A stretch of 64,000 bases of DNA from Clostridia bacterium (GTDB lineage Bacteria; Bacillota; Clostridia; Christensenellales; Aristaeellaceae), in the NCBI GenBank assembly GCA_017428385.1, contig JAFRQX010000033.1:62001-126000 (forward strand), given 5' to 3'. Positions 32,905-52,505 of this stretch are shown here, in pieces. Below the pieces are notes generated by a model. It saw only the letters and a program-made list of their open reading frames with translations, had not been told where the DNA came from and made no database searches. The stretch's first letter is position 1. Every line of letters starts with the position of its first letter. The position numbers and the translations under genes are program-made.

Positions 32905-32905
32905 T

Positions 32906-34813
32906 TTATTCCGGGTTTTCCGGGAAAGGCTGCCCAGCTTTACGGGCAGCTTTTTTCTTTTGTTTGTTCCGGTACATCAGGGAATCCGCACCCCGGATGC
33001 ATTCATCCAGGGGTTTGCGTTCCTCTTTGGTGGTGCGGACGACGCCGATGGAAAGACTCAGGACAAAGGGAATGCCGGAGGTGCGGTTGTATTCATCCGC
33101 GGTGGCGTCAATTTCCTCGCAAAGGGAGGGATTGCAGCCGCTGTCGATGATGATGAACTCATCGCCGCCATAACGCATAATGAAGGCGTTTTCGGAACAA
33201 ATCCGCTGGAGGATCCGGGCGGAGGCTTTCAGCGCGGCATCGCCGGATTCATGACCGAAACGGTCGTTGATGGCCTTCATATCATTCATATCAATGAAGA
33301 GCACCTGGACGGAGCCTTCGGAAGCGATCAGGTCATCATAACGCTGCTGTCCGAAGCGGGACAGGCCGAAACGGTTGTAAAGGCCGGTGAGCGCGTCATG
33401 GACATACAGCTCATCCAGGGTATCATTCAGGTTGTGAAGCAGGCTCTTTTTCCGCACGTTTTCAATGGCAATTTCCAGAAAGTTCAGGATGCTTTCGTGC
33501 AGGTTATGTTTCGCCGCACCACAGATGCCGTTCATGACGATATAGCCGATGGAATAGGTGTTGTAGTGCAGCGGATAGAAGATCAGGAAGGGTTCGTTCT
33601 CCATCAGGTGCTCCGGCAGGAGGCTGCTGGTAGGGAAGCGGACGATTTCGTTATCCGCGCTGCTGTCAAACAGTACCATGGTGGAATCAAAATGCTCCGC
33701 ATAACGCGGCCACATGTTTTTATCATAATTGTCGAAGTAATATTCGTTGATGCACAGGTACACATTGTCACAGCCGAAAATGGCATGGCTTCTGTTGAAA
33801 ATGCTCATGAGGTCCTGCAGATCCTGGGCTTCGAACAGCTCTTCAGCCATCAGGTCCTGCTTGATATAGAAGGAACGGAGGAAACGGGTCTGCTGGAAAT
33901 ACAGGTCGCGGATCACGCCGCGGCGCGGCGCGTTATGACAGCCGCAGGATTCGGAACAGATCAGGTCATACCCGAAGGAAATGCGGGTACGGGTTTCCGC
34001 TCCCCGGATCATGCCGAGCAGCACGTCCGCCGCAAAATAGTCCAGCTTGCTGTGGTCCGTATGGACGGTGGAAAGGCGGGGACTGGAGAGCTCCGCGGAG
34101 GGAAGGTTGTCAAAACCGCAGACCAGTACGTCCCTGGGAATCCGGAGACCGTTTTCCTGCAGCGTTTCCATCAGGCCGAGGGCCATTTCATCGTTTGCAC
34201 AGATGAAGGCATCCGGCAGGGGATGCTTTTCACGGATCCAGCGTTTTGCCAGGTCCACGGCATCGCTGGGACGCCAGGTACATTCGACAATTTCGATCTG
34301 TTCCTTCGGAATGCCGTTATCCCGGCAGGCGGCCATGAAACCGCTCAGACGGTCCGGCCCCTCGGAACCGCAGTGGAGGTTGCCGGTCAGGTAGACCAGG
34401 CGGCGGGCACCGTGTTCACGGATGACATGCTCGGTCATATCATACTGTGCCTGGATATTGTCAAAGAAAACAAGGGAACACCCCTTCAGCTCCTGTCCGA
34501 TGGCAACTGCAGGGATGCCGCTTTCTTCTATTTGTTTTTCGAGAGATTCACGGGCGGAACGCAGGACAATCTGGTTGCTCTGGATGAGCAGGCCGTCAAA
34601 GCAGGACAAATTAGGCAGCTGAAAAATCGTGTATTCACTTCGGTCCTTGTCATTTCCCTGATCTTTGCCGAAGCAGTCGAATACACGGATCTGCACATCT
34701 GGATGATCCACGGTATACTGTGTCAACCCGTGGAGGGTGCTTTCCACCAGCTCGTAATTCCAGTCGGCTGTGAGAAAAGCAATCCGAAACTTTTTCTTCT
34801 GATCCGCAGCCAT
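32906..34813 (-). CDS. Diguanylate cyclase with LacI-type sugar-sensing domain
   Basis: A 635-residue protein without signal peptide or membrane helix, so cytosolic. Residues about 8-290 match the effector domain of LacI repressors (RIAFLTADWNYELVESTLHGL, PDAFICANDEMALGLMETLQENGLRIP, LVCGFDNLPSAELSSPRLSTV) but no helix-turn-helix precedes it. Residues about 310-465 look like a GAF-type linker. The C-terminal GGDEF domain (about 470-620) has DALTGLYNR, FIDMNDMKAINDRFGH and an intact RYGGDEF active site; the usual inhibitory RxxD is absent. It should make c-di-GMP in response to a small ligand. Start ATG 34813 follows AGGGAA. Confidence 0.9.
   Translation of the reverse strand: MAADQKKKFRIAFLTADWNYELVESTLHGLTQYTVDHPDVQIRVFDCFGKDQGNDKDRSEYTIFQLPNLSCFDGLLIQSNQIVLRSARESLEKQIEESGIPAVAIGQELKGCSLVFFDNIQAQYDMTEHVIREHGARRLVYLTGNLHCGSEGPDRLSGFMAACRDNGIPKEQIEIVECTWRPSDAVDLAKRWIREKHPLPDAFICANDEMALGLMETLQENGLRIPRDVLVCGFDNLPSAELSSPRLSTVHTDHSKLDYFAADVLLGMIRGAETRTRISFGYDLICSESCGCHNAPRRGVIRDLYFQQTRFLRSFYIKQDLMAEELFEAQDLQDLMSIFNRSHAIFGCDNVYLCINEYYFDNYDKNMWPRYAEHFDSTMVLFDSSADNEIVRFPTSSLLPEHLMENEPFLIFYPLHYNTYSIGYIVMNGICGAAKHNLHESILNFLEIAIENVRKKSLLHNLNDTLDELYVHDALTGLYNRFGLSRFGQQRYDDLIASEGSVQVLFIDMNDMKAINDRFGHESGDAALKASARILQRICSENAFIMRYGGDEFIIIDSGCNPSLCEEIDATADEYNRTSGIPFVLSLSIGVVRTTKEERKPLDECIRGADSLMYRNKQKKKAARKAGQPFPENPE
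32927..32960 (+). terminator. Terminator of the deacetylase gene, inside the 3' end of the convergent cyclase gene
   Basis: GCTGCCC (32929-32935) pairs with GGGCAGC (32944-32950), then TTTTTTCTTTT. The minus-strand coding region covers this same DNA. Confidence 0.82.
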
Positions 34814-34866
34814 ATAGATTCCCTGCAACTTGTTACATATTTACAATACATCAGTACAGCTATAAA

Positions 34867-34896
34867 AATATACACTAAAACTTGCCAAAATGTCAA
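34867..34896 (-). promoter_or_regulatory. Promoter of the diguanylate cyclase
   Basis: Minus strand TTGACA (34896-34891), 18-base spacer, TATATT (34872-34867). An AAACGATT octamer at 34911-34918 sits just upstream. Confidence 0.75.
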
Positions 34897-34971
34897 TCTT
34901 TTACAGGGCGAAACGATTTGGTTTTACGGGCATCGGACGTTAGAAATCCACTATGCAAAACGGATAGAAAA

Positions 34972-34980
34972 TGCTATAAT
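34972..34980 (+). promoter_or_regulatory. Extended -10 promoter of the DUF6273 gene
   Basis: TGCTATAAT, an extended -10 box with perfect TATAAT; no convincing -35 box. Confidence 0.55.
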
Positions 34981-35035
34981 ACATAAGATGTCCATGATTT
35001 ATGGATTGCTTTGTGTTCGGAAAGGTGAAACGGTA

Positions 35036-35920
35036 ATGAAGGAACGGAAGAATACCAGTATGCATGGGAGAAAATGGCTGGCAGCACTCCTGGCGGCGGT
35101 TCTTCTGCTGGCTTCGTGCGCCCTGGCTGAAGACGGACTGGAAGGCTATTCCAAAGAAAAAGGGTATACCTATCTGCGGCTCGGACGTTATCCGCAGACT
35201 GCAGAGGGCGGCATTGAGCCGATCCTGTGGCGGGTTCTGACAAAGGATGACGAGAAGGCCTACCTGCTCAGTGAATATATTCTCTTTGCCAGGGCACTGC
35301 ACAACAACAGGAATGAATACGCAAAATTCAAGGGTGATTTCGCCCAGACCGAGCTGTGCCAGTACCTGAACACGACGTTTACAGAAGCTGCTTTTACTGA
35401 GGAAGAGCTGTCCATGCTGCTTCCCTGTGAAAACTTCGGCAAGGTATTCCTGATCACCCGGGAAGATATGAAGAACAAGGAAATCGGACTGGGTGCCTGG
35501 ACATCCAAGAAGGATCCGACCCTGAAGCAGATCCAGGAGAATCCTGCTGTCCGGGCCTGGGGAACTGAATGGGCGATCAAAAACAACGGGTATGATCCGG
35601 CAGAGTACCCGGATCCGAAAGCAAAAGTACGGAACGCAACAGATACCGCGAACATTACGCTGGGCGAAAAGCGGCTGTACGTGTTCCAGGCGAAATACGG
35701 ATCCTGCAGCCCGTACTGGGGCAGGTCCCAATCCACCACTGACAAGAAACAGGCTGTCTGCACCAAGGACGGCGGCCAGGTCGGCCGGATTGAGGTCGGC
35801 CGGGATAATGAAGGCGTGCGTCCTGCCCTGTATCTGGCAGAGGGAAGCTACAGCATTATATCCGGATCCGGCACAATGGAGGATCCCTACGAGATCGTTC
35901 CCGCCGGCACTGAAGAGTAA
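35036..35920 (+). CDS. Secreted DUF6273-type protein
   Basis: A 294-residue exported protein. ATG at 35036 follows AAAGGTG; the frame is open far upstream but that part is antisense to the cyclase gene. Signal peptide 1-31, with LLASC as a possible lipobox or ALA as a cleavage site. The body matches the DUF6273 pattern: YLRLGRYPQTAEGGIEPILWRVL, YLLSEYILFARALHNN, FAQTELCQYLNTTF and the end block VGRDNEGVRPALYLA. The family is common in gut Clostridia, of unknown role, perhaps C-type-lectin-like or formylglycine-enzyme-like. It begins a run of co-directed genes. Confidence 0.8.
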   Translation: MKERKNTSMHGRKWLAALLAAVLLLASCALAEDGLEGYSKEKGYTYLRLGRYPQTAEGGIEPILWRVLTKDDEKAYLLSEYILFARALHNNRNEYAKFKGDFAQTELCQYLNTTFTEAAFTEEELSMLLPCENFGKVFLITREDMKNKEIGLGAWTSKKDPTLKQIQENPAVRAWGTEWAIKNNGYDPAEYPDPKAKVRNATDTANITLGEKRLYVFQAKYGSCSPYWGRSQSTTDKKQAVCTKDGGQVGRIEVGRDNEGVRPALYLAEGSYSIISGSGTMEDPYEIVPAGTEE

Positions 35921-37996: not shown

Positions 37997-38115
37997 GGTA
38001 TCCGAAAAAACTACATTCCATGGTGCCCACTACGACGCCGGCACGGTAACTTACAACCCTGCCCGGTCGTTTGCGGTTAATACAAAAACACATTATGAAA
38101 GGAGTCGGCATTGCA

Positions 38116-39465
38116 GTGAAAAACACATTTCGCGGCGGCGTACATCCCGCAGGTCATAAGGACCTGAGCCGGGAAAGCCGTCTGCGTCTCTTCGATCCGA
38201 AGGGAGAGATGGTTTTCCCGCTTTCCATGCACATTGGAAAACCCGCGAAACCGGTGGTGAAAAAGAATGATGAGGTGAAGGTGGGGCAGTTGCTCGCGGA
38301 AGCGGACGGCTTTGTTTCCGCACCGATTCATTCCAGCTGTTCGGGTAAGGTGAAGGCAATTGAAAAGCGCCGGGTGCTGGGCGGCGGCATGGCAGAATGC
38401 ATTGTCATCGACAATGACGGACTGTTCACGCCCGCGGAAGATTATACCCAGCGGACGGACGCTTCCAAACTGTCCAACAGCGACATCATCCAGCGGGTAC
38501 AGAAGGCCGGCATCGTCGGCCTGGGCGGCGCAGGTTTCCCGACGGCTGTAAAACTCCAGCCGAAGAATGCTGACGCGATCGAATACGTGATCGCCAACGG
38601 CGCTGAGTGCGAGCCGTACCTGACCTGCAATGATCAGCTGATGCGGATCCATTCCAATGAGATCGCGGAAGGCCTGGAGCTGGTGCTTCGGCTTTTCCCG
38701 AACGCCGAAGGTGTAATCTGCATCGAGGATAACAAACCCGAAGCCATTGAGGCGATGAGCCGTGTTGTATCGGATAAGCCGAAGATCAGCGTACGGACCA
38801 TGATTACCAAGTACCCCCAGGGCGGTGAGCGCAGCCTGATCCAGGCTGTGGCCGGTGTGGATTTCCCCACCAGCAAGCTGCCCGCTGACGTGGGTTGCGT
38901 GGTGCAGAACGTTGGAACGCTATACGCGATCCAGCGCGCTGTGCTCTACGGAGAACCGCTGTTCAGCCAGTGCTTCACCATTACCGGTGAGGCGGTTGCA
39001 GAACCCGGAAACTATATGGTCCGGGTGGGCACCAGCTATGCCGAACTGCTGGAAGCTGCAGGCGGTGTGAAGGAAGGCATGGAGATCCGCAAGGCTCTCT
39101 CCGGCGGACCCATGATGGGTATTGCCATCGGTTCACTGGACATCCCGATCCAGAAGCAGAACAACGGCCTGACGCTGCTGGCGGAGGACCCGGTGGAAGC
39201 GGCGGAAGCCGTGATGACCAGCTGCTTGCGCTGCGGACGCTGCACAACGGTGTGCCCGATGGGCCTGACACCCCAGCTGATGTGCGATGCGGCGGTGGCC
39301 GGCGACCTGGAACGGTATGAGAAGAAGCTGTACGGCATGGACTGCATCCAGTGCGGCAGCTGCAGCTTTGCCTGCCCGGCCAAACGGCCCCTGACGCCTA
39401 CGTTCAAGCAGGCGAAGGCAGAAATCCTTGAGAAGAGAAAACGGGAAGGAGGCGCTCAGAAGTGA
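38116..39465 (+). CDS. rnfC: Rnf complex subunit C
   Basis: A 449-residue peripheral subunit of the Rnf ferredoxin:NAD+ oxidoreductase. GTG at 38116 is chosen because the protein then begins KNTFRGGVHPAGHKDLS, the family N terminus, with AAAGGAG 11 bases before. It carries the NADH/FMN-binding stretch GLGGAGFPTAVK and, near the C terminus, two 4Fe-4S motifs, CLRCGRCTTVCP and CIQCGSCSFACP. RnfC passes electrons between NADH and the complex at the inner face of the membrane. The 119-base gap upstream holds no clear promoter or terminator. The stop overlaps the next start (GTGA). Confidence 0.95.
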   Translation: MKNTFRGGVHPAGHKDLSRESRLRLFDPKGEMVFPLSMHIGKPAKPVVKKNDEVKVGQLLAEADGFVSAPIHSSCSGKVKAIEKRRVLGGGMAECIVIDNDGLFTPAEDYTQRTDASKLSNSDIIQRVQKAGIVGLGGAGFPTAVKLQPKNADAIEYVIANGAECEPYLTCNDQLMRIHSNEIAEGLELVLRLFPNAEGVICIEDNKPEAIEAMSRVVSDKPKISVRTMITKYPQGGERSLIQAVAGVDFPTSKLPADVGCVVQNVGTLYAIQRAVLYGEPLFSQCFTITGEAVAEPGNYMVRVGTSYAELLEAAGGVKEGMEIRKALSGGPMMGIAIGSLDIPIQKQNNGLTLLAEDPVEAAEAVMTSCLRCGRCTTVCPMGLTPQLMCDAAVAGDLERYEKKLYGMDCIQCGSCSFACPAKRPLTPTFKQAKAEILEKRKREGGAQK

Positions 39466-41015
39466 ATATGCTGAATCTTTCCGCGGCTCCTCACGCAAGA
39501 GATAAATGGACTACTCCGTTCATCATGCGGATGGTCACCCTGAGCCTGCTGCCTGCCACGATTGTGGGTATCCTGGTATACGGCTGGAACGCCTTCGGCG
39601 TTGTGGCACTGGCAATTGTTTCCGCTGTGGCGTCTGAATGGCTTTTCTGCAAAGCCTGCAAAAAGCCCAGCACTATCTGGGACGGCAGCGCGGTGGTTAC
39701 CGGTCTTCTGCTGGCCTTGTCCCTGGGACCGCAGACGCCCCTGTATATCCCGGTGATCGGTTCCGTGTTCGCTATTGTGGTATGCAAGTGCTGCTTCGGC
39801 GGTCTGGGCAAGAACTTCATCAACCCCGCACTGGCAGCCCGCTGCTTCCTGCTGATTTCCTTCGCAAACGCGATGGCAATCAAGCCGATTGTGGACACAG
39901 TCGCGTCCGCGACTCCCGTCGGCGCTATGAAAGCCGGCGAGGTGGTGGATATCACCAAGATGTTCCTGGGCACGGCGGACGGCGTAATCGGCAGCTCCAT
40001 CCTGGCGCTGCTGGTGGGCGGCCTGCTGCTCTGGAGCCTGGATATCATCCATGGCCAGATCTGCTTCTCCGTGCTGATCGGCTTCACCGTGTTCCTGGGC
40101 CTCTTCGGTGGAAAAGGCTTTGATCCCGCCTACCTGCTGGCGCACCTGTGCGGCGGCGGTGTGGTGATGGGTGCCTTCTTCATGGCCACGGACTATGTGA
40201 CCAGTCCTGTCAGCCGCCTGGGTCAGTTCATTTACGGCTGCCTGATCGGCGTGCTGGGCGGACTGTTCCGCCTGAAGGGCAACACGGCAGACTCCTTCAG
40301 CTACGCGATCATTATCGGCAACGTATGCTCTCCCCTGATTGATACTTATATCGTTCAGAAACCCTTCGCCTACAGGAAGATCGGCAAGACCCGGAAGACC
40401 AGCAAAGAGCCCTTCCGGATTCCGAAGCCTGTGATCGCCCTGACGCTGATTGCGGCGATCGCCGGTGTGGCGCTGAGCGGTGTGTATTCCATGACCAAGG
40501 ATACCATTGAAGAACAGAAGCTGCAGGCGGAGCGGGCTTCCTACAGGGAAGTGTGCCCCGAGGCAGAGACCTTTGAAGACTCCGAAGCCGCGAAGGCAAA
40601 GCTGGAAGAGCTGGCCGGCGGAAACTGGGGAACGAACTTCGGTTCCACCCGGATCAACGAGGCGATTGTGGGCAAGGATGCCGCCGGTAATGTGGTCGGC
40701 TATGCCCTGAGTGTCTCTTCCAAGGGCTTCGGCGGCGACGTAACCATGGCGCTGGGCCTGACCCCGGACGGCGAAGTGAAGAAGATTTCCTTCACAGAGC
40801 TGAATGAAACCGCGGGCCTGGGCATGCGGGCCAATGAGGACTCCTTCAAGGATCAGTTCCCGGGCAAGAGCGGCGGCGTGAGCCTGGTGAAGGGTGACGC
40901 CGGAGAGAACGAGATCAGTGCCCTGACCGGCGCGACCATCACCTCCACGGCTGTGACCAACGCCCTGAATGCCGGCCTGGACTTCTATGATACTGTGCTG
41001 AAAGGAGGCAACTGA
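39462..41015 (+). CDS. rnfD: Fused Rnf subunits D and G
   Basis: A single 517-residue frame holds two subunits normally made apart. Residues 1-315 are RnfD: some eight membrane helices, TIWDGSAVVTGLLLALSLG, and the FMN-threonine site ASATPVG (Thr151). A basic linker (about 310-325) leads to an RnfG part: one membrane helix (about 328-348) and an external FMN domain with GFGGDVTMALGL and TGATITS (Thr492), a covalent FMN site made by ApbE. The gene order C-DG-E-A-B matches the usual C-D-G-E-A-B. GTG start 39462 has AGGAGG nine bases before. The frame is unbroken, with no sign of frameshift or internal start. Confidence 0.92.
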   Translation: MNMLNLSAAPHARDKWTTPFIMRMVTLSLLPATIVGILVYGWNAFGVVALAIVSAVASEWLFCKACKKPSTIWDGSAVVTGLLLALSLGPQTPLYIPVIGSVFAIVVCKCCFGGLGKNFINPALAARCFLLISFANAMAIKPIVDTVASATPVGAMKAGEVVDITKMFLGTADGVIGSSILALLVGGLLLWSLDIIHGQICFSVLIGFTVFLGLFGGKGFDPAYLLAHLCGGGVVMGAFFMATDYVTSPVSRLGQFIYGCLIGVLGGLFRLKGNTADSFSYAIIIGNVCSPLIDTYIVQKPFAYRKIGKTRKTSKEPFRIPKPVIALTLIAAIAGVALSGVYSMTKDTIEEQKLQAERASYREVCPEAETFEDSEAAKAKLEELAGGNWGTNFGSTRINEAIVGKDAAGNVVGYALSVSSKGFGGDVTMALGLTPDGEVKKISFTELNETAGLGMRANEDSFKDQFPGKSGGVSLVKGDAGENEISALTGATITSTAVTNALNAGLDFYDTVLKGGN

Positions 41016-41016
41016 G

Positions 41017-41727
41017 ATGAAAAAGTATATCGAACGCCTCTGGAACGGCCTGATTAAAGAAAACCCGGTCCTTGTACTGATGCTGGGCATGTGCCCGGCG
41101 CTGGCGGTTTCCACCCAGGCGTCCAACGGCATCGGCATGGGTCTGAGCACGCTGGCCGTGCTGGTACTGAGCAACTTCGTGATCAGCTGCCTGCGGAAGG
41201 TGATTCCGGATCAGGTTCGGCTTCCTGCCTACATCGTAATCGTCGCCAGCCTGGTGACGGTGACCGAACTGCTGATTGAAGCATATCTGCCCAGCCTCTA
41301 TGAGGCACTGGGCATCTACATTCCGCTGATCGTGGTGAACTGCATCATCCTCGGCCGTGCGGAAGCCTATGCGAACAAACATACCCCGCTGCTGTCCGTG
41401 ATGGACGGTATCGGCATGGGCCTTGGTTTTACCATTGCCCTGACCCTGGCGGGCATGATCCGTGAACTTCTCGGTGCGGGAACGGTCTTCGGATTCCGCC
41501 TGCTGCCGGAAAGCTTCGGTATGACGATCTTCATCCAGCCTCCGGGAGCCTTCCTGGTCTTCGCGCTGATCATTGCGGTGATGAATGCCATCGGCATCAA
41601 GACCCGTCAGCGCAAGCTGGTTGAGAGCGGCTGTGACGGCAACTGCGCACTGTGCAGCTCCGTATGCGAATCCCGGGATGCCGATCCGAAAGCTGAAGAA
41701 GAACAGAAGGGAGGCGCGGACGCATGA
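41017..41727 (+). CDS. rnfE: Rnf complex subunit E, with cysteine-rich C-terminal tail
   Basis: A 236-residue membrane subunit with six helices. Cys in LGMCPALAV and in VVNCIILGRA are positioned to help hold the intramembrane iron-sulfur cluster shared with RnfA. After the last helix the cytosolic tail has four cysteines in the pattern C-x3-C-x2-C-x3-C (CDGNCALCSSVC, about residues 209-220), followed by an acidic end. The tail could bind another cluster or metal; this is a guess. It starts one base after the DG stop and overlaps rnfA by four bases. Confidence 0.94.
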   Translation: MKKYIERLWNGLIKENPVLVLMLGMCPALAVSTQASNGIGMGLSTLAVLVLSNFVISCLRKVIPDQVRLPAYIVIVASLVTVTELLIEAYLPSLYEALGIYIPLIVVNCIILGRAEAYANKHTPLLSVMDGIGMGLGFTIALTLAGMIRELLGAGTVFGFRLLPESFGMTIFIQPPGAFLVFALIIAVMNAIGIKTRQRKLVESGCDGNCALCSSVCESRDADPKAEEEQKGGADA

Positions 41728-42308
41728 ATAACACGAGTCTGATTATGATCATCGTGACCAGCGCGCTGGTGCACAATGTGGTGCTGAACCAGTTCCTGGG
41801 CATCTGTTCCTTCCTGGGCGTGAGCAAACAGATGAAGGCCTCCATCAGCCTGGGCGGCGCGGTCATCTTCGTTATCACCATCGCCTCCGCTGTGGCAAGC
41901 CTGCTGTACGACTACGTCCTCAAGCCCCTGGGCATGGACTTCATGAAGACCATCATCTTTATCCTGGTCATTGCTGCCCTGGTGCAGATTGTGGAAATGT
42001 TCCTGAAGAAGAAGTCCCCGGCGGTGTACAAGGCCCTGGGTATCTATCTTCCCCTGATTACCACCAACTGCGCGGTGCTGGGCGTTGCCCTGACCAACGT
42101 GCAGGACGGCTACAACTTCATCCAGTGCGTGACCAGCGGCTTCGGCACGGCTGTGGGCTATACCATCGCCATCGTGCTGCTGGCGGGCATCCGGTCCCGG
42201 ATCAATGAAAAGGACCTGCCCGCTCCGCTGCGGGGCGCGCCCATTGTCATGATCGCTGCCGCGCTGATGTCCATCGCGTTTATGGGCTTCGGCGGCCTGG
42301 TACTGTGA
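41724..42308 (+). CDS. rnfA: Rnf complex subunit A
   Basis: A 194-residue, six-helix membrane subunit. VLNQFLGICSFLGVS and LITTNCAVLGVAL contain the conserved cysteines that, with those of RnfE, carry the central iron-sulfur cluster moving electrons through the membrane. It overlaps rnfE (ATGA) and is 16 bases ahead of rnfB. Confidence 0.95.
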   Translation: MNNTSLIMIIVTSALVHNVVLNQFLGICSFLGVSKQMKASISLGGAVIFVITIASAVASLLYDYVLKPLGMDFMKTIIFILVIAALVQIVEMFLKKKSPAVYKALGIYLPLITTNCAVLGVALTNVQDGYNFIQCVTSGFGTAVGYTIAIVLLAGIRSRINEKDLPAPLRGAPIVMIAAALMSIAFMGFGGLVL

Positions 42309-42324: not shown

Positions 42325-43119
42325 ATGAACATTATTCTGATCACGACCCTGGTTATCGCGGTCATCGGTATCTGCGTCGGCGCGGGCCTGGTTTTCACCG
42401 GCAAGAAGTTTGCGGTGGAAGTGGACGAACGGGAAGTGGCCGTGCGGGAACAGCTCCCCGGCAACAACTGCGGCGCCTGTGGTTATGCAGGCTGTGACGC
42501 GCTGGCCGGCGCCATTGCCCGGGGCGAAGCTCCGGTAAACGCCTGCCCGGTAGGCGGCGCGCCTGTGGCCCAGGCAATCGGCGACATCATGGGAACCACT
42601 GCCGGTGCAATGGAACGCAAGGTTGCGTTCGTGGCCTGCAAGGGCACCTGCGAAGTGACAAAGAACCAGGGCAACTATATCGGCATCAAGGACTGCCGGA
42701 CCGCTGTGCTTTCCGGCATGAATATCACGGACTGTATCTACGGCTGCCTGGGCTTCGGCTCCTGCGCCGAGGTTTGTCCGGAACAGGCCATCTCCATTCA
42801 GAACGGTGTTGCCGTTGTGAACCGGAACCGCTGCGTCAGCTGCGGTCTGTGTGCCAAGACCTGCCCGAGGGGCCTGATCTCCCTGATTCCGGAAAGCCGG
42901 ATCATCCGCGTTCAGTGCTCCAACCGGGATAAGGGTCCGGTTGTCCGGAAAATGTGCTCCGCCGGCTGCATCGGCTGCGGCCTGTGCGTAAAGCAGTGTG
43001 AATCCGAAGCCATCGCGTTTGACGGCACACTGGCCCGGATTGATCCGGAAAAGTGCACCCTCTGCGGCAAGTGCGCGGAGAAGTGCCCCGCCAAGGTCAT
43101 CATGACCACTCCGAATTAA
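42325..43119 (+). CDS. rnfB: Rnf complex subunit B, ferredoxin-type
   Basis: A 264-residue subunit that takes electrons from reduced ferredoxin. One N-terminal membrane anchor (3-25) is followed by the Fes motif NNCGACGYAGCDALA and four more ferredoxin-like cysteine groups: GCLGFGSCAEVCP, CVSCGLCAKTCP, CIGCGLCVKQCE and CTLCGKCAEKCP. That allows about five 4Fe-4S clusters, at the high end but usual for clostridial RnfB. It is the last subunit of the complex; the FMN-NrfA gene starts 13 bases later behind its own GGAGGG site. Confidence 0.95.
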   Translation: MNIILITTLVIAVIGICVGAGLVFTGKKFAVEVDEREVAVREQLPGNNCGACGYAGCDALAGAIARGEAPVNACPVGGAPVAQAIGDIMGTTAGAMERKVAFVACKGTCEVTKNQGNYIGIKDCRTAVLSGMNITDCIYGCLGFGSCAEVCPEQAISIQNGVAVVNRNRCVSCGLCAKTCPRGLISLIPESRIIRVQCSNRDKGPVVRKMCSAGCIGCGLCVKQCESEAIAFDGTLARIDPEKCTLCGKCAEKCPAKVIMTTPN

Positions 43120-43132
43120 TGGAGGGAAGAAA

Positions 43133-46100
43133 ATGGACTATTTTGCTAAGAAACAATGGATCCGGATCGCAATCTGCGCGGTGCTGGTGGCGGCGATCGT
43201 CCTGGCGATGACCGGTGTGTTCAGCGGAACCGAATCCCTGAAGTATGACCCGTCCGCCAAGAAACTGGCTGCCGGTGAGTCTGAAGCGGAAGCAGCCATG
43301 CAGGGCTTTGGCGGTGACGTTACGGCGCATCTTGTCCTGGAGGGCAACACGGTCAAGGAACTGACCATCGATACGCCGAACGAGACCGAAGGTCTGGGCA
43401 AGCGCGCGTCTGACGCGGAATTCACTGACCAGTTCATCGGCAAGGACGGTCCCTTCACCTTCGGTGAAAACGGCGTTGAAGCCCTGTCCGGCGCTACCGT
43501 GACTTCCACGGCTGCCCTGAAGGCGATCAACAAGGCCATCACCGGTGAGGAAGCGGCCGAAGAACCCGCCGCGGAAGAACCGGCCAAGGAACCTGAAGCG
43601 GCTGCGGCGGATGAGAATGCCATCACCGCAACGGAGCAGGGCTTCGGCGGCAACGTGACAGTACACGTCACCCTGGACGGCGACAAGATCCAGACACTGA
43701 CCATTGATACGCCCAATGAAACCGCTGGCCTGGGCCAGCGGGCTTCCGAAGCGACGTTCACCGATCAGTTCGTTGGCAAGAGCGGCCCCTTCACCTACGG
43801 CGAAGACGGAATCGTAGCGCTGACCGGTGCGACGATCACCTCCGAAGCTGCGCTGAAGGCGATCAACAGCGTTGTGCCGGCGGCTGAACAGAACGAAGAA
43901 GCTGCACCGGCAGAAGAATCTGCAGAAGCGATCGGAACGGCTGCTGCAACAGATGCTGCCGCTGTGACCGCATCGGAGCAGGGCTTCGGCGGCGACGTGA
44001 CAGTGCACGTCACCCTGGACGGAGACAAGATCCAGGCACTGACCATCAATACACCCAATGAAACCGCCGGACTGGGCCAGCGGGCTTCCGAAGCGGCCTT
44101 TACCGATCAGTTTATCGGCAAGAGCGGCCCCTTCACCTACGGCGAAGACGGAATCGAAGCGCTGACCGGCGCGACGATCACCTCCAATGCCGCCCTGAAG
44201 GCGATCAACAGTGTGATGCCCGCGGCTGAACAGAAGGAAGAAGCCGCCGCGACGGAAGAACCGGCTGCGGAAGCAACGGCTGAACCTGTTGCTGAAGCGA
44301 CAGCTGAACCTGCACCGGAAGCAACCGAAGCACCCGCGGAAAAGGCTGAGACAAAGCAGGAAGCTGCTTCTGACGGACAGGCTTACGCTGTTTACCGTGC
44401 AACGAAGGAGAATGCCTTCAGCAAGGTAACGGTTACCGCTTCCGCCAAGAACGGCGCCCTGACAGACGTGAAGATCACTTCCGAAGGCGAAGAGGGCAAG
44501 GACCTGCTGACGGATGAAATCCGCAGCGAGTGGGCCAAGGCCATCCTGGAAAGCGGCAGTGCGGCGCCGGATGCCATCACAGGCGCGACCCTGAAATTCT
44601 CCGCCGGTTCCGTGCAGGAAGCCATGGAAGAAATCCTGGCCCGGATGAACGGGGAAACTGCTGCGGCTCCTGCTGAAGAGCCTGCGGCTGAAGAACCCAA
44701 GGCTGAGGAACCTGCCGCAGAAGAAGCCGTTTCCGAAACAAAGGAAGAGCCTGCTGCAGCCGCCCCTGAAAAGGTGGTACCGCTTTATGCTGCCTACCGT
44801 GCGGAAGCTGAGAACAACTTCAGTAAGGTAACAGTCATTGCTTCAGCGAAGAACGGACAGCTGACGGCTGTAAAAATCCTCTCCGAGGGAGAAGGAAACA
44901 ACGACCTGCTGACGGATGCCATCCGAGAGGAGTGGGCCAAGGCGATCCTGGAGAGCGGCAGCGCGGCTCCGGACGCCATCACCGGCGCAACTCTGCAGTT
45001 CTCTGCCGGTTCCGTGCAGAAAGCCATGGAGGAGATCCTGGCAAAGATGGCGGGCGGCGGGACAGCTGCGGATAAACCTGCGGCAGAGACGCCTGCGGAA
45101 GAACCCAAGGAAGAGAATAATACATCCGCGATAAGCGGCAGCGATATGCTGTCGCTTATCGCTGTTTCTATGGGTAAAGAACAGGAAAACAGTTATGTGA
45201 CAGATTATCTGGAACAGGATCCATATCTGGTGAACATTTATGAAGGATATGGGTTTGCAAAGGATTATGGCAGCGCCCGCGGACATTCCTACACCCTGAC
45301 GGATGTGGCAAAGACACAGCGGCCGCATCCAAAGGCCAACTGCCTGACCTGCAAGACGCCGGATATGCACAAGATGATTGAGGAACTGGGCGTCGGCGTC
45401 TATTCCATGGCTTTTGACGAGGTCATGGCTCAGATGACACAGCCGATCTCCTGTTATACCTGTCATGGAGCGGATGACGGTAACGGCGGCAAGATGGTTG
45501 TCACCCACCAGTATGTGAACGAGGCGCTGGGCGCGAACATCAGTGAAATCAAGGCGGCATCGCTGTCCTGCGGACAGTGCCATATTGAATACTATTTCAC
45601 GCCGGAAGACAGCGAAACCATGATGCCGTACCACAGCAAGGCGGAAATGACGCCTGAGGCGATACTGGCCTATTATGACGCGATGGGCTTCTTCGACTGG
45701 GAACAGCCGGGAACCGGAACAAAGATGCTCAAGGCGCAGCATCCGGAACTGGAAACCTGGGCGTATGGCAAACATGCCGCCATGCTCAGCTGCGCCGACT
45801 GCCATATGCCGACAGTCACAATGGAGAACGGCATGCAGTATCACGATCATCACCTGGTGAGCCCGCTGCAGAACGAAGTTCTGCTGGAAAAATGCGCTTC
45901 CTGTCATGGGAGCGCTGATAACACCATTGCCCTGGTGCGGGATATTCAGGCTAAAGTTACAGCGCGTGAGACAGAAGTGGGCAACCTGCTGTCCGGTCTG
46001 AAGGATAAACTGACGGAGACGGTTTCCGCCGGACAGATGGGCGAAGAAGATCTGAATGCGGTTCGGAAACTGCATCGTGAAGCGCAGTGGTTCTTTGATT

Positions 46101-46567
46101 TCTGCTATGTGGAAAACTCAGAGGGTGCACATAACTCCGCACTGGCCTACCGCTGTCTGGACACTGCTGAAACGAAGATCGGCGAAGCTATGAATCTGAT
46201 TGCTTCTGCGGGAATGACAGACGTAAGCGCACAGATGCCTTCCGAGGAAGCACCTGCAGAAGGAGAGGCGGCTCCGAAAACGCCTCCGATGTATGCAGGC
46301 TATCGTGTGGAAAAGGAAAACGCGTTCAGTAAGATTACTGTTATCGCCTCCGCCAGGAACGGGATGCTGACCAGCATGAAGATCCTTTCGGAAGGTGAAG
46401 AGGGAAAAGATCTGCTGACGGATGAAATCAAAGAGGAATGGGCGAAGGCTGTTCTGGAGAGCCAAAGCGCGGCACCGGACGCCATTACCGGCGCAACGCT
46501 TGCATTTTCTGCAGCTTCTGTACAGGAAGCGGTAACAGAAATCCTGGACAAGGCGTCCGGCAGATAA
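43133..46567 (+). CDS. nrfA: Membrane-anchored pentaheme nitrite reductase (NrfA) fused to six FMN-binding domains
   Basis: A 1144-residue protein in the Rnf operon. A membrane anchor (about 11-31) is followed by three RnfG-like FMN domains with covalent-FMN threonines at 122, 234 and 348, then two FMN domains of another subtype (Thr486, Thr620), joined by Ala/Glu/Pro-rich linkers. Residues about 685-1030 are ammonia-forming nitrite reductase: heme motifs at 737 (CLTCK, the lysine-ligated active heme), 774, 813, 887 and 921, with ARGHSYTL, HIEYYF and YHDHH supplying the expected active-site Arg, Tyr and His. A sixth FMN domain ends the protein (Thr1122). Ordinary NrfA is about 450-500 residues. 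Likely acts outside the membrane, taking electrons from Rnf. Confidence 0.9.
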   Translation: MDYFAKKQWIRIAICAVLVAAIVLAMTGVFSGTESLKYDPSAKKLAAGESEAEAAMQGFGGDVTAHLVLEGNTVKELTIDTPNETEGLGKRASDAEFTDQFIGKDGPFTFGENGVEALSGATVTSTAALKAINKAITGEEAAEEPAAEEPAKEPEAAAADENAITATEQGFGGNVTVHVTLDGDKIQTLTIDTPNETAGLGQRASEATFTDQFVGKSGPFTYGEDGIVALTGATITSEAALKAINSVVPAAEQNEEAAPAEESAEAIGTAAATDAAAVTASEQGFGGDVTVHVTLDGDKIQALTINTPNETAGLGQRASEAAFTDQFIGKSGPFTYGEDGIEALTGATITSNAALKAINSVMPAAEQKEEAAATEEPAAEATAEPVAEATAEPAPEATEAPAEKAETKQEAASDGQAYAVYRATKENAFSKVTVTASAKNGALTDVKITSEGEEGKDLLTDEIRSEWAKAILESGSAAPDAITGATLKFSAGSVQEAMEEILARMNGETAAAPAEEPAAEEPKAEEPAAEEAVSETKEEPAAAAPEKVVPLYAAYRAEAENNFSKVTVIASAKNGQLTAVKILSEGEGNNDLLTDAIREEWAKAILESGSAAPDAITGATLQFSAGSVQKAMEEILAKMAGGGTAADKPAAETPAEEPKEENNTSAISGSDMLSLIAVSMGKEQENSYVTDYLEQDPYLVNIYEGYGFAKDYGSARGHSYTLTDVAKTQRPHPKANCLTCKTPDMHKMIEELGVGVYSMAFDEVMAQMTQPISCYTCHGADDGNGGKMVVTHQYVNEALGANISEIKAASLSCGQCHIEYYFTPEDSETMMPYHSKAEMTPEAILAYYDAMGFFDWEQPGTGTKMLKAQHPELETWAYGKHAAMLSCADCHMPTVTMENGMQYHDHHLVSPLQNEVLLEKCASCHGSADNTIALVRDIQAKVTARETEVGNLLSGLKDKLTETVSAGQMGEEDLNAVRKLHREAQWFFDFCYVENSEGAHNSALAYRCLDTAETKIGEAMNLIASAGMTDVSAQMPSEEAPAEGEAAPKTPPMYAGYRVEKENAFSKITVIASARNGMLTSMKILSEGEEGKDLLTDEIKEEWAKAVLESQSAAPDAITGATLAFSAASVQEAVTEILDKASGR
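43634..44217 (+). repeat. Tandem near-identical FMN-domain repeats, 342-base period
   Basis: The DNA for FMN domains 2 and 3 (from 43634 and from 43976) is almost the same over about 230 bases, with mostly silent differences. Domains 4 and 5 are a looser pair with a 402-base period. This points to internal duplication within the gene. Confidence 0.8.
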
Positions 46568-46643: not shown

Positions 46644-47936
46644 ATGAAAAAGATCGGAAAATTCCTTTCTTCCATGCCATTTGCGATTACGCTGCTGGTG
46701 CTGCTGGCCGCGGCCTGCGCGTTCAGTTCCACTGTTTCACAGGGACAAGCATATGAATACTACGCAGCGCAGTATGGAGAGAGAACTGCCGGACTGATCC
46801 TGGCACTGCATCTGGACGACGCGTTTCACAGCTGGTGGTTTATCGGATTGAGCGTGTTTTTGTGCCTGAATCTGCTCTGCTGCAACCTGATCCGGCTGCC
46901 CGGACTGCTGAAACGGGTTCGCACCTTTGCAAAACCGGACGGCACCACTGCATCAAATGCCACGGCTGAAGCGGAAGGCACAGGGGATCCGCATCGCTTG
47001 TTTGCGGCATTGCATATGCCGTCGGTTCGTGAAAGTGAGAACGGTCAGCTTTATGCGACCGGGAACCGGGCCGGATTCTGGGGCGCGTGGGTTTGCCATC
47101 TGGGCATTCTTTTGCTGATCCTTGGGTTTGCACTGGGACAGATTACCATGAAACAATATACAGTCTATGCCCTGCCCGGACAAACAAAAGGGATGGACGA
47201 TTCCGGATTGCAGGTGACGGTAGATGATCTTCAGATCCTGCGCGCGGAGAGCGGCGCAGTGCAGCAGTACACAGCTGAGCTGACTGTATTGGATCCTGTG
47301 AATCATACGGAGGAAAAAGGAACAACCGGTGTAAATGCGCCGGCGAATTTATACGGTTATAAATTCTTCCAGAATTCTGTGGGCTGGGGCGCTGACGTAC
47401 GGGTGCTGAAAAACGGACAGGAACTGCAGAAGGAGGGACTTTGCGTCGGCGAGTTCTTCGCAATCTCGGACAAGCCGGAGCTGGTGATCTATTTTCCAGC
47501 GTTTTATCCGGATTATTCAGGAGAACCGAAACAGAGTGATCCGTCTTTGCCGGTGAAGGATCCGGCGTACCTGTACCAGGTCTATTACCAGGGTCAGATT
47601 CTCGGCATGAATGTACTGAAAGCCGGGGAAGAACTGACAATTGACGAGTATACAGTGCTGTTTGAAAATCCAAGGAACTATACGCTGCTGGCAGTTAAAC
47701 GCGATGTTTTTACCTGGCTGGTGCTGCTGGGGGGCCTGGTTACACTGGCCGGCCTGGTGATGGCTTTCTGGCTGCAGCCGAGGGCTGTCTGCGCGGTGAA
47801 AGAAGGGGAAAACTGGCATGTGTTTGGCCGATGTCAAAAGGGAGGAGTCCTTTTCCGGGAGGAATTCCTGAAGGCGGCCGCGGAGACCGGATTTACCCCT
47901 TGCAAATCCTCAGATATTGAAGGAGATGATGCATGA
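46644..47936 (+). CDS. resB: Cytochrome c biogenesis protein ResB (System II)
   Basis: A 430-residue membrane protein with helices near 10-30, 68-88, 150-170 and 352-375 and a large external domain between. It fits ResB/Ccs1, half of the System II heme-lyase that attaches heme to CxxCH motifs outside the membrane: AITLLVLLAAACAFSSTVSQ at the start, AGFWGAWVCHLGILLLILGF and NSVGWGADVRV. Its stop overlaps the ccsA start (ATGA). The only c-type cytochrome seen in the window is the NrfA fusion just upstream, its obvious client. Confidence 0.9.
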   Translation: MKKIGKFLSSMPFAITLLVLLAAACAFSSTVSQGQAYEYYAAQYGERTAGLILALHLDDAFHSWWFIGLSVFLCLNLLCCNLIRLPGLLKRVRTFAKPDGTTASNATAEAEGTGDPHRLFAALHMPSVRESENGQLYATGNRAGFWGAWVCHLGILLLILGFALGQITMKQYTVYALPGQTKGMDDSGLQVTVDDLQILRAESGAVQQYTAELTVLDPVNHTEEKGTTGVNAPANLYGYKFFQNSVGWGADVRVLKNGQELQKEGLCVGEFFAISDKPELVIYFPAFYPDYSGEPKQSDPSLPVKDPAYLYQVYYQGQILGMNVLKAGEELTIDEYTVLFENPRNYTLLAVKRDVFTWLVLLGGLVTLAGLVMAFWLQPRAVCAVKEGENWHVFGRCQKGGVLFREEFLKAAAETGFTPCKSSDIEGDDA

Positions 47937-48751
47937 TGCTTCAGGCGGAAAACACGCTGTTCACAATTGTTGTGATTGGTTATTTTATCCTTACGGCCCT
48001 GAACTTCGCTTTTGTGATCCTGAAGAAGGACGCGCTGGCCAAAGTTGCATTCGGGATTCAGACGGGGATTTTCCTGCTGCATACTGCTGCGCTTGTACTG
48101 CGGGGAATCGGCGCGGGGCACTGGCCGATGACGAACCAGTATGAGTTTGCCACCAGCTTTGCCTGGGCGCTTTGCCTGGTCAGCCTGGTTTTTATCCGGA
48201 AGTATCGCTTTCCGGTGCTGGGGGCTTTTTCTTCGCCGCTGATTCTGCTGATGATTGGCTATGCAGCCATGCAAAGCAGGGAAGTGAAGGAACTGATGCC
48301 TTCATTGCGTTCCAGCTGGCTGGCTTTTCATGTTTCCACGGCGATCATCGCATATGGATCTTTCGGGGTTGCCTTTGTCCTTTCCCTGATCTTCCTCTTC
48401 CGGGGAAGAATCAAGGGAGAAGGGTTCTGGGGACAGCACATTCCGCAGCCGGAAAAGCTGGATATGATCAGCTACCGGAGCGTATGCCTGGGAATGCTGT
48501 TTCTGACACTTACGATTCTGACCGGAGCAATCTGGGCTGAACAGGCCTGGGGCAGTTACTGGTCCTGGGATCCGAAGGAAACCTGGTCACTGGTGACCTG
48601 GATTATTTACGCGATTTACCTTCACCTGCGGATACGCAGAGGCTGGAGAGGGAAGGCCGCAGCCTGGTTTGCCGTGATCGGCTTTATCTGTGTGATATTT
48701 ACCTATATCGGTGTGAATACGTTCCTGCCGGGTATTCATAGTTATGCATAA
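47933..48751 (+). CDS. ccsA: Cytochrome c biogenesis protein CcsA/ResC (System II)
   Basis: A 272-residue protein with about eight membrane helices. It has the tryptophan-rich heme-handling WWD segment WGSYWSWDPKETWSLVTW followed by a histidine in YLHLR, and further histidines in AFHVSTAII and near the C terminus (GIHSYA), as expected for heme delivery by CcsA. With ResB it forms the System II synthase. It overlaps resB by four bases and is followed after 15 bases by an esterase gene. Confidence 0.93.
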   Translation: MMLQAENTLFTIVVIGYFILTALNFAFVILKKDALAKVAFGIQTGIFLLHTAALVLRGIGAGHWPMTNQYEFATSFAWALCLVSLVFIRKYRFPVLGAFSSPLILLMIGYAAMQSREVKELMPSLRSSWLAFHVSTAIIAYGSFGVAFVLSLIFLFRGRIKGEGFWGQHIPQPEKLDMISYRSVCLGMLFLTLTILTGAIWAEQAWGSYWSWDPKETWSLVTWIIYAIYLHLRIRRGWRGKAAAWFAVIGFICVIFTYIGVNTFLPGIHSYA

Positions 48752-49928: not shown

Positions 49929-50132
49929 ATGGCCAAGCTGACCATCGACCGTGAGACCTGCAAGGGCTGCGGCCTCTGTGCCGATGTCTGTCCCAAGCAT
50001 CTGCTTGCGCTGAGCAAGGAGATCAACACCAAAGGATATCATCCCATCGGAATTACGGATCAGGAAGCCTGCATCGGCTGCGCGTTCTGCGCACGCATGT
50101 GCCCCGACGCCGTAATCAAAGTGGAGAAATAA
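49929..50132 (+). CDS. 2-oxoacid:ferredoxin oxidoreductase, ferredoxin-like delta subunit
   Basis: A 67-residue protein with two 4Fe-4S motifs, CKGCGLCADVCP and CIGCAFCARMCP. As the first gene of the delta-alpha-beta-gamma set it would carry electrons from the TPP enzyme to ferredoxin. An AAGGAGG site lies close to its start, and the next gene begins 17 bases downstream. Confidence 0.92.
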   Translation: MAKLTIDRETCKGCGLCADVCPKHLLALSKEINTKGYHPIGITDQEACIGCAFCARMCPDAVIKVEK

Positions 50133-50148
50133 AGGAGGAAGCGAATCC

Positions 50149-51225
50149 ATGGGTGAAAAAATGCTCATGAAGGGAAATGAAGCTATCGCCGAAGCCGCGA
50201 TCCAGGCAGGATGCCGCTTCTTCTTCGGCTATCCCATTACCCCTCAGAACCAGATTCCGGAATACATGTCCAAGCGGCTGCCGAAGATTGAAGGCGGCTG
50301 TTTCCTGCAGGCGGAGAGTGAAGTAGCCGCTATCAATATGGTCTACGGTGCGGCCGGCGCCGGAGCGAGGGTTATGACCTCTTCCTCCAGCCCGGGAATC
50401 TCCCTGAAGCAGGAAGGCATCAGCTATATTGTGGGTGCGGAACTGCCCTGCGTTATCGTGAACATGGTGCGCGGCGGCCCCGGACTGGGTTCTATCCAGC
50501 CTGCCCAGAGCGACTACTATCAGTCTACCCGCGGCGGCGGACACGGCGACTATCGGATGCTGGTGCTGGCTCCCTCTTCCGTTCAGGAAGCAGTGGAACT
50601 GACACAGGAAGCATTTGACCTGGCGGACAAGTACCGCAATCCCGTGCTGATCATGGGCGACGGCCTGATCGGCCAGATGATGGAGCCCGTGGAGATGCCG
50701 GAACGCAAGGAGCGGACCGACCTGCCTGAGAAGACCTGGGCGGCGACCGGCTGGACGCCGGACTGCGGCCGGGACCGGGCGATCATCAACTCCCTGTACA
50801 TCGATCCCGCTGTACTGGAAAAGCATGTGAACAAGCTGTACGCCAAGTACGCTGTTATGGAACAGACCGAATGCCGCTGGCAGGAAGAAATGACTGATGA
50901 CGCGGATTTCGTGATTGTCGCCTACGGCACCACGGCCCGTATTGCCCGCAGCGCCATGCGCAAGCTGCGCGAAGAAGGCATCAAGGCCGGCCTGATCCGT
51001 CCCATCACCCTGTGGCCCTTCCCGGCGGCTGCGATTGCCAAGGCTGCTGAGCATGCCAAGGCTTTCCTGACCGTGGAAATGAGCATGGGTCAGATGGTGG
51101 ATGACGTGAAGCTGGCTGTGGACGGCAAAAAGCCCGTTCACTTCTTCGGCCGTACCGGCGGTATTGTGCCGACGGTCCGGGAGATCATCACCCAGGTTGA
51201 AAATCTTGCCAAGGAGGGGAAATAA
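50149..51225 (+). CDS. vorB: 2-oxoacid:ferredoxin oxidoreductase, alpha subunit (VorB/KorA type)
   Basis: A 358-residue subunit with the pyrimidine-binding start of the pyruvate-ferredoxin oxidoreductase family: [27 protein letters not shown], then [21 protein letters not shown] and [15 protein letters not shown]. The later transketolase-C-like half includes [15 protein letters not shown]. Members act on branched-chain 2-oxoacids or 2-oxoglutarate rather than pyruvate; the exact substrate cannot be told. It makes acyl-CoA and reduced ferredoxin, the fuel for Rnf. Confidence 0.92.
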
Positions 51226-51227
51226 GC

Positions 51228-51965
51228 ATGGCTGTTGTGTATGAAAAAACAAAGCTGCTGACCGACAAGCCGCTGCATTATTGCCCCGGCTGTACCCACG
51301 GTATTATCCATCGTCTGGTGGCGGAAGCCATCGACGAACTGGGCATCCAGGGAAAGACCATTGGTATCGCGCCGGTTGGCTGCGCCGTGTTTGCCTATGA
51401 TTATTTCAACTGCGACATGATGGAAGCCGCTCACGGCCGTGCTCCGGCTGTGGCTACCGGCTGCAAGCGGGTGAACCCGAACAACATCGTGTTTACCTAT
51501 CAGGGAGACGGTGACCTCGCCTCCATCGGCGCGGCGGAAATCACCCATGCGGCGACCCGCGGCGAGAATATCACCGTAATCTTCGTCAACAATGCCATTT
51601 ACGGCATGACCGGCGGCCAGATGGCGCCCACCACCCTGCCGGGCCAGGTGACCACCACCTCTCCCTATGGCCGGGATCCCAAGCTGTGCGGCTATCCCAT
51701 CCGGGTCAGTGAAATGCTGGCTACCCTGGACGGTCCCGCCTACATCTCCCGCGTATCCGTGCATGACGTGAAGCACATCATGGAAGCCAAGAAGTCCATC
51801 AAGAAGGCATTCGAAATGCAGATTGCCGGCAAGGGCTTCTCCCTGGTGGAAGTGCTGTCCGCCTGCCCCACCAACTGGGGAATGACGCCCCAGGAGGCAC
51901 TGAAGTGGGTGGAAGCCAACATGATTCCCCAGTACCCGCTGGGTGTGAAAAAGGAGGTTGAGTGA
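51228..51965 (+). CDS. 2-oxoacid:ferredoxin oxidoreductase, beta (TPP-binding) subunit
   Basis: A 245-residue TPP-binding subunit. It shows [14 protein letters not shown] at the N terminus, the GDGDLASIG start of the TPP motif and its [11 protein letters not shown] end, plus [14 protein letters not shown]. It pairs with the alpha subunit, starting two bases after it, and uses TPP, linking it to the thiamine genes at 17-19 kb. Confidence 0.93.
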
Positions 51966-51968
51966 TTC

Positions 51969-52505
51969 ATGGAAGCTCAATTTCTGATTGCAGGTTTCGG
52001 CGGACAGGGCGTGCTGCTGATCGGCCAGCTGCTGGCCAAGGCTGCCATGCACGAGGGGATGAACGTTTCCTGGATGCCTTCCTACGGCCCGGAAATGCGC
52101 GGCGGCGAAGCCAACTGCGCCGTGGTTATCTCCGATGAACCCATCGGTTCTCCGCTGGTGACGGAAATCCCGATCGCCGTGATTATGAACAAGCCCAGCA
52201 TGATCAAGTTCACTCCCGCTATGGAAAAGGGCGGCATCATGCTGTACAACTCCTCCCTGATCGATATCACCCCCGACCGGGACGATATCACCGCGATTCC
52301 CGTGGATTGCAACGGCATTGCTGAACAGCTCGGCAACAGCCGGACCGCCAACATGGTTATGCTTGGCGCGATCCTGGAGAAGACCGGCGTAGTGAGCATC
52401 GACTCCGCCATGGAAGCCCTGAAGGCCACCTTCGGCCCCAAAAAGGAACACCTGCTGCCTATCAACCGGCAGGCCATGGAAAAAGGTGCCGAAGCCGTCA
52501 AATAA
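51969..52505 (+). CDS. 2-oxoacid:ferredoxin oxidoreductase, gamma subunit
   Basis: A 178-residue subunit with the family's opening EAQFLIAGFGGQGVLLIGQLLA and SYGPEMRGGEANCAVVIS. It completes the heterotetramer and is followed by a strong terminator. Its start lies three bases after the beta-subunit stop. Confidence 0.92.
   Translation: MEAQFLIAGFGGQGVLLIGQLLAKAAMHEGMNVSWMPSYGPEMRGGEANCAVVISDEPIGSPLVTEIPIAVIMNKPSMIKFTPAMEKGGIMLYNSSLIDITPDRDDITAIPVDCNGIAEQLGNSRTANMVMLGAILEKTGVVSIDSAMEALKATFGPKKEHLLPINRQAMEKGAEAVK

Follow-up and report, generated by a model that had tools for sequence, protein, structure and literature searches.

Among described systems, the closest to the one reported here are the "multi-flavinylated RnfGs" with a multi-heme cytochrome domain found in Christensenellales (Meheust et al. 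2021, eLife, Fig. 6H; PMC8238504), which make a multi-flavin/multiheme fusion already known in kind. We analyzed a 64,000-nucleotide stretch of a Clostridia bacterium genome from the same order (assembly GCA_017428385.1, contig JAFRQX010000033.1, positions 62,001 to 126,000 of the forward strand; hereafter the window), which shares with that description an rnf cluster and, within one protein, several FMN_bind domains together with a multiheme domain. This protein of 1144 amino acids (aa) and the multi-heme RnfGs of Meheust et al. are probably one protein family. Its multiheme part is the nitrite reductase NrfA, and its gene is the sixth of eight in the order rnfC, rnfD::rnfG, rnfE, rnfA, rnfB, nrfA, resB, ccsB. 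From its sequence and genomic setting, we consider it likely that a dedicated Rnf chain, independent of quinones, has this protein as its terminal nitrite reductase.

The 1144-aa frame is uninterrupted (Table 1). A preliminary description, drawn from the letters of the sequence, had proposed six FMN_bind domains and one NrfA in this single protein. The open frame and Pfam agree, since both families that it named for a scan were found (Cytochrom_C552, E 4.8e-80, residues 685-1039, 270.1 bits against a cut-off of 24.1; FMN_bind, E 2.3e-45, six stretches), and motif positions and Pfam likewise place five FMN_bind domains (hereafter beads) before the NrfA core and one after it. The five heme motifs (CLTCK, CYTCH, CGQCH, CADCH, and CASCH) keep their ligands as described, including the lysine heme CLTCK. 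A structural model of the core matches the solved NrfAs 3ubr (E 3.8e-15) and 2rdz, and a match to solved NrfAs was also found by sequence. Positions aligned to Escherichia coli R106, K126, E215, Y216, K261, Q263, and H264, which we take to be its active-site and calcium-site residues, are invariant in all 91 NrfA cores compared; in the window protein the active-site Arg/Tyr/His and calcium-site Glu/Lys/Gln include R730, E819, Y820, K867, Q869, and H870. The core is predicted to carry out the six-electron reduction of nitrite to ammonium.

The protein is organized as beads on a string, with domains spaced by linkers of 25-50 residues that are mostly rich in Ala, Glu, and Pro and mostly of low confidence in the model. 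The helix modeled at residues 3-29 is taken as a membrane anchor. An independently assembled genome of the same genus (G374, one 3.39-Mb contig) has the identical architecture in 1143 aa; repeat collapse or expansion was rejected on this ground, and the architecture is therefore not an assembly artifact. Chance is excluded by the E-values together with recurrence across genomes.

The beads fall into two subtypes of three each, and the (S/T)GAT threonines lie at residues 122, 234, 348, 486, 620, and 1122, on both counts where the preliminary description had put them. Scanned singly against Pfam FMN_bind, beads 1-3 were clear matches (E 1.3e-12, 3.1e-13, and 1.3e-14) and beads 4-6 remote ones (E 2.1e-4, 5.6e-4, and 4.7e-4), with bead 4 slightly above the cut-off of 22 bits and beads 5 and 6 slightly below it. 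For the second type, an AlphaFold model built with 39 sequences (pLDDT 80) had as its top solved match domain 2 of SaFMN3 (Z 11.7, 2.0 Å over 86 residues), with domain 1 of CbFMN4 also near the head of the matches (Z 8.5). Both are crystallized covalent-FMN domains (PMC10339131), and the modeled second type is supported as an FMN_bind fold. Beads of this fold in CbFMN4 and SaFMN3 are flavinylated if produced together with ApbE (PMC10339131), and the genome studied here encodes one ApbE (E 1.6e-86), by which covalent FMN is predicted to be attached to the six threonines. With Dxx(S/T)GA(S/T) as the test motif, the Asp three residues before (S/T)GAT is found only in beads 4-6 (Glu, Val, and Glu in beads 1-3), and it is kept in 32 of 32 motif-bearing copies of type-2 beads. 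Loss of FMN from beads 1-3 is not predicted, because an Asp-to-Ala change at this place had a minor effect only in one tested flavoprotein (ApbE review, PMC12052999).

The setting of the gene ties it to Rnf. RnfG is present in the operon, fused to RnfD and with its own attachment motif (its domain scores 95.2 bits against TIGR01947). The 1144-aa protein reaches 73.5 bits against a TIGR01947 cut-off of 102, and its gene follows rnfB rather than lying between rnfD and rnfE. The RnfG label of Meheust et al. was rejected for it because the operon's RnfG is already fused to RnfD. We compared 79 homologous loci in public genomes, mostly ruminant-gut metagenome-assembled genomes (MAGs) of Clostridia, Erysipelotrichaceae, and Spirochaetales; this sample relies on MAGs and is weighted toward ruminants. 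Where enough sequence was available, rnfB lay directly upstream of nrfA in 66 of 71 loci and resB directly downstream in 73 of 75, and RnfD and RnfG were fused in all 65 loci with RnfD. For comparison, 15 further Rnf regions from the order, two of them in NrfA-less genomes of the same genus, all had a separate RnfD and none had the fusion. In a tree of RnfD, a branch with SH-aLRT support of 100 splits 41 sampled NrfA-operon sequences from 16 conventional ones (tree supports here are SH-aLRT values from a short, quick search).

NrfA was found in 17 genomes in a sample of 396 from the order. The genome studied here and 14 fetched ones have the rnf-nrfA operon, one contig was too short, and G356 encodes a divergent NrfA outside any rnf operon. 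Elsewhere in the class, NrfA occurs apart from an rnf operon in four genomes, mostly adjoining resB-ccsB. At one locus (L071:11714-13831) a single frame comprises RnfB, a membrane helix, and NrfA, which is either a true fusion or the result of stop codon loss; a long NrfA frame at L033 was discounted, as it overlaps rnfB in another frame.

Genome-wide inventories relied on one profile search per family, so that the absence of a function was judged from one profile each. The genome is 99% complete and has one NrfA, one Rnf, and one ApbE. NrfH (Cytochrom_NNT, PF03264) was absent from it and from 20 other genomes, including all 17 NrfA genomes of the order. UbiA was undetected in it by a search that was positive in 14 of 14 control genomes, and was missing from 16 of the 17 NrfA genomes; one relative, G243, had a match. 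The layout of Rnf, with an outer flavin, is known. Because the genome has a single Rnf, and neither NrfH nor quinone synthesis was detected, the most economical assumption is that this outer flavin donates electrons to NrfA. Seven further FMN_bind proteins are encoded elsewhere in the genome, six with FAD_binding_2 and one with C_GCAxxG_C_C (C4, C5, C8, C10, C23, and C29; L139-L145), giving many outer flavin reductases against a single Rnf. No molybdopterin oxidoreductase was detected in the genome by profile search, and nitrite would therefore come from community members in the gut. Reduced ferredoxin has a likely source in the 2-oxoacid:ferredoxin oxidoreductase cluster downstream of the operon, whose parts by Pfam are a 67-aa ferredoxin-like protein (49929), POR_N (50149), TPP_enzyme_C (51228), and POR (51969).

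Table 1. Features of the rnf-nrfA operon, its bead protein, and neighboring genes (positions count from the first nucleotide of the window)
Feature	Positions	Strand	Basis
rnfC	38071..39465	+	TIGR01945, 497.9 bits
rnfD::rnfG, single frame, ISALTGAT	39462..41015	+	TIGR01946, 228 bits (residues 9-302); FMN_bind, 4.1e-16 (residues 422-506)
rnfE	41017..41727	+	TIGR01948, 243.9 bits
rnfA	41724..42308	+	TIGR01943, 252 bits
rnfB	42325..43119	+	TIGR01944, 91.3 bits (cut-off 68.7)
Multi-FMN_bind/NrfA protein	43133..46567	+	Open frame and Pfam; bead order 1,1,1,2,2,NrfA,2
N-terminal membrane helix (putative), residues 3-29	43139..43219	+	Model helix; hydrophobic stretch following KKQWIR
Bead 1, RnfG-like FMN_bind, Thr122 (EALSGAT)	43295..43540	+	Motif, single-bead Pfam scan
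Bead 2, RnfG-like FMN_bind, Thr234 (VALTGAT)	43631..43876	+	Motif, single-bead Pfam scan
Bead 3, RnfG-like FMN_bind, Thr348 (EALTGAT)	43973..44218	+	Motif, single-bead Pfam scan
Bead 4, second FMN_bind type, Thr486 (DAITGAT)	44369..44650	+	Motif, Pfam scan, fold match
Bead 5, second FMN_bind type, Thr620 (DAITGAT)	44771..45052	+	Motif, single-bead Pfam scan
Pentaheme NrfA core, residues 676-1023, CLTCK and four CxxCH	45158..46201	+	Pfam, alignment, motifs, fold
Bead 6, second FMN_bind type, Thr1122 (DAITGAT), C-terminal to NrfA	46277..46558	+	Motif, Pfam scan
resB, cytochrome c maturation system II	46644..47936	+	PF05140, 1.5e-44
ccsB, cytochrome c maturation system II	47933..48751	+	TIGR03144, 262.7 bits (cut-off 187.6)
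2-oxoacid:ferredoxin oxidoreductase cluster	49929..52505	+	Pfam; context only, outside the protein

The order within the bead string varies among relatives. Beads or FAD domains occur on 21 of the 91 NrfA cores, and 20 of these fall within one group of 22 in the NrfA tree, in which class-level outgroups sit on very long branches and no root is claimed; the remaining one, L037, stands apart. The group's two apparently bead-less members are L030, with beads on an adjacent frame, and L029, whose contig starts inside the gene. Beads thus appear to have been gained mainly in one clade, bead-less NrfA being the commoner form. In NrfA fusions with both types, type 1 always precedes type 2, and NrfA may stand first (N11222), second (1N1222), third (11N122), or near the end (11122N2) of the string. 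The flanked arrangement of the window protein is therefore probably not functionally special. Its bead 4, which lies before NrfA, clusters with L023 and L024 beads located beyond NrfA (support 99), indicating that the place of NrfA relative to the beads has shifted, and some beads are recent tandem copies.

Further variants were observed. At L037:9995-12916 and L131:5764-8688, the same operon slot holds a chimera in which NrfA is joined to FMN_bind and FAD_binding_2 (fumarate/urocanate-reductase type), and the L131 operon also encodes a separate four-bead protein. One protein has two full NrfA cores in tandem with ten heme motifs (L047:12529-14964), and a genome of the same family encodes a stand-alone RnfG of 925 aa with eight FMN_bind domains (L146:5887-8661). 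Elsewhere in the window, a 1016-aa open frame (32870-35920) had zero Pfam matches at E 1e-8.

In the proposed mechanism, reduced ferredoxin, or NADH via RnfC, would feed the dedicated Rnf. Electrons would exit at the flavin of the RnfG domain, which, being fused to RnfD, would sit at the outer face of the membrane, and would pass to the five hemes of membrane-anchored NrfA, where nitrite would be taken to ammonium with six electrons. The hemes would be matured by the adjoining resB-ccsB and the beads flavinylated by the single ApbE. A general model in which the beads form a fixed linear wire between membrane and NrfA was rejected, since NrfA may precede all of them; the flexibly tethered beads would instead fit a relay, store, or hub. 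They probably swing between Rnf and NrfA, relaying and storing electrons, and possibly serve other outer reductases too. From comparative sequence evidence we infer that FMN is bound covalently, that Rnf passes electrons to NrfA, that ion pumping is coupled to this transfer, and what role the beads have. We lean slightly, and less firmly than for the terminal reductase itself, towards a wider generalization: a quinone-free, energy-conserving chain from ferredoxin through a dedicated RnfD::G-type Rnf and covalent flavins to NrfA and ammonium, with a string of exchangeable flavins on the reductase, in an operon that would have passed, within animal guts, among Clostridia, Erysipelotrichales, and Spirochaetota.

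Several observations weigh against a dedicated, quinone-independent chain running through the beads. Roughly three in four NrfAs encoded in the rnf operon have no beads, which therefore cannot be needed for Rnf to feed NrfA, and in proteins of the N11222 type all beads lie beyond NrfA from the membrane anchor, a misfit with a linear wire. Three loci with an NrfA gene (L026, L028, and L121) have no bead with a full (S/T)GA(S/T) motif; their decayed motifs read, for example, DVISSAT, DAVSGVT, and DAITSAS, with the final Thr or Ser retained. The full-length model of the 1144-aa protein (pTM 0.47) yields no flavin-heme distances. The absence of quinones was judged from a single family, UbiA, and a scavenged quinone could be used. 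Finally, the NCBIfam equivalog cut-offs for proteobacterial NrfA were not reached (NF008339, 215.5 against 595 bits; TIGR03152, 176.4 against 692.5 bits), and with scores so far below them, as for a divergent NrfA, identity is claimed at the family level only.

Among other explanations, the one that fares best, although we regard it as tentative, is that the string is an electron hub, leading from RnfG through the beads to NrfA, to FMN_bind plus FAD_binding_2 reductases, and perhaps to extracellular acceptors. A bifurcated path has been proposed for Rnf multi-flavin/multiheme proteins (Meheust et al., PMC8238504). The six FAD_binding_2 reductases encoded elsewhere in the genome would suit such a hub, as would the free place of NrfA along the string with beads beyond it in several relatives, the fusion of FAD_binding_2 to NrfA in L037 and L131, and the separate four-bead protein of the latter operon. 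However, the covalent fusion to NrfA is retained across almost the whole clade, and a hub is compatible with a terminal nitrite reductase fed by Rnf rather than exclusive of it.

It is unlikely, in our view, that the protein chiefly detoxifies nitrite, hydroxylamine, or NO at the cell surface, as an NAD+-sparing electron sink with no gain in ion gradient. NrfA enzymes are able to reduce NO and hydroxylamine as well as nitrite, and the lack of a detected molybdopterin-type nitrate reductase leaves nitrite to be supplied by gut neighbors. Nonetheless, Rnf complexes are ion pumps, and a whole co-inherited, dedicated Rnf lineage with RnfD::G exceeds the needs of detoxification.

Less probable still is that the beads are mainly spacers, or are only partly flavinylated and carry little current, with RnfG reducing NrfA directly as in bead-less relatives. 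The prevalence of bead-less NrfA in the rnf operon, the persistence of decayed beads at three loci, and the missing motif Asp of window beads 1-3 are in keeping with this; against it, beads of the same fold in CbFMN4 and SaFMN3 are flavinylated with ApbE (PMC10339131). All six (S/T)GAT motifs are also intact in the window, motif-bearing type-2 beads have the Asp without exception, and the final Thr or Ser survives in decayed beads too. Supply of NrfA by a quinol pool or another donor, with the rnf neighborhood reflecting merely a shared transcript, is very improbable: canonical NrfA does receive electrons from quinol via NrfH or NrfBCD, and G243 has its UbiA match, but NrfH was found in 0 of 21 genomes and UbiA was undetected in this genome and nearly all relatives, while the operon and the RnfD::G fusion are conserved across phyla.

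If true, the proposed chain offers a concrete, testable explanation of nitrite respiration by fermenting gut bacteria that have no quinones, and Rnf would then supply a terminal reductase directly. In the rumen, ammonification of nitrite and methanogenesis compete for reducing power, and the former also bears on nitrite poisoning under nitrate feeding. The protein is also a natural flavin-heme construct with free domain order for studies of multi-flavin electron transfer.

Among the hits listed by a literature search thin on subscription papers, there was no report of an Rnf-NrfA operon, of the NrfA identity, of a dedicated RnfD::G lineage, or of a sliding NrfA position. In the system of Meheust et al. 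(PMC8238504), the protein is called RnfG and its cytochrome domain is unnamed, whereas here NrfA, complete in its catalytic residues, makes up the multiheme part, the operon encodes its true RnfG as a fusion with RnfD, and bead-less NrfA is the commoner form. CbFMN4 and SaFMN3 (Tong et al. 2023, PMC10339131) likewise carry several FMN_bind beads on one secreted protein, and the second bead type has the same fold, but they lack a heme domain and their beads number three or four. Desulfovibrio vulgaris NrfHA (2j7a) shares the NrfA fold, the CxxCK active-site heme, four CxxCH motifs, and the active-site and calcium-site residues; in contrast, the window system is without NrfH or detectable quinone synthesis, and has its own anchor, FMN beads, an rnf operon, and scores below the equivalog cut-offs. 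A precedent is MmcA, described as an Rnf-linked multiheme c-type cytochrome and outer electron conduit of Methanosarcina acetivorans (PMC11024163, PMC6703419). MmcA is a conduit rather than a nitrite reductase and is not known to carry FMN beads. Reductases of the FMN_bind plus FAD_binding_2 kind (fumarate and urocanate type) share the tethering of FMN_bind to an outer reductase domain; in the window protein that domain is NrfA, and the L037 and L131 chimeras join both kinds.

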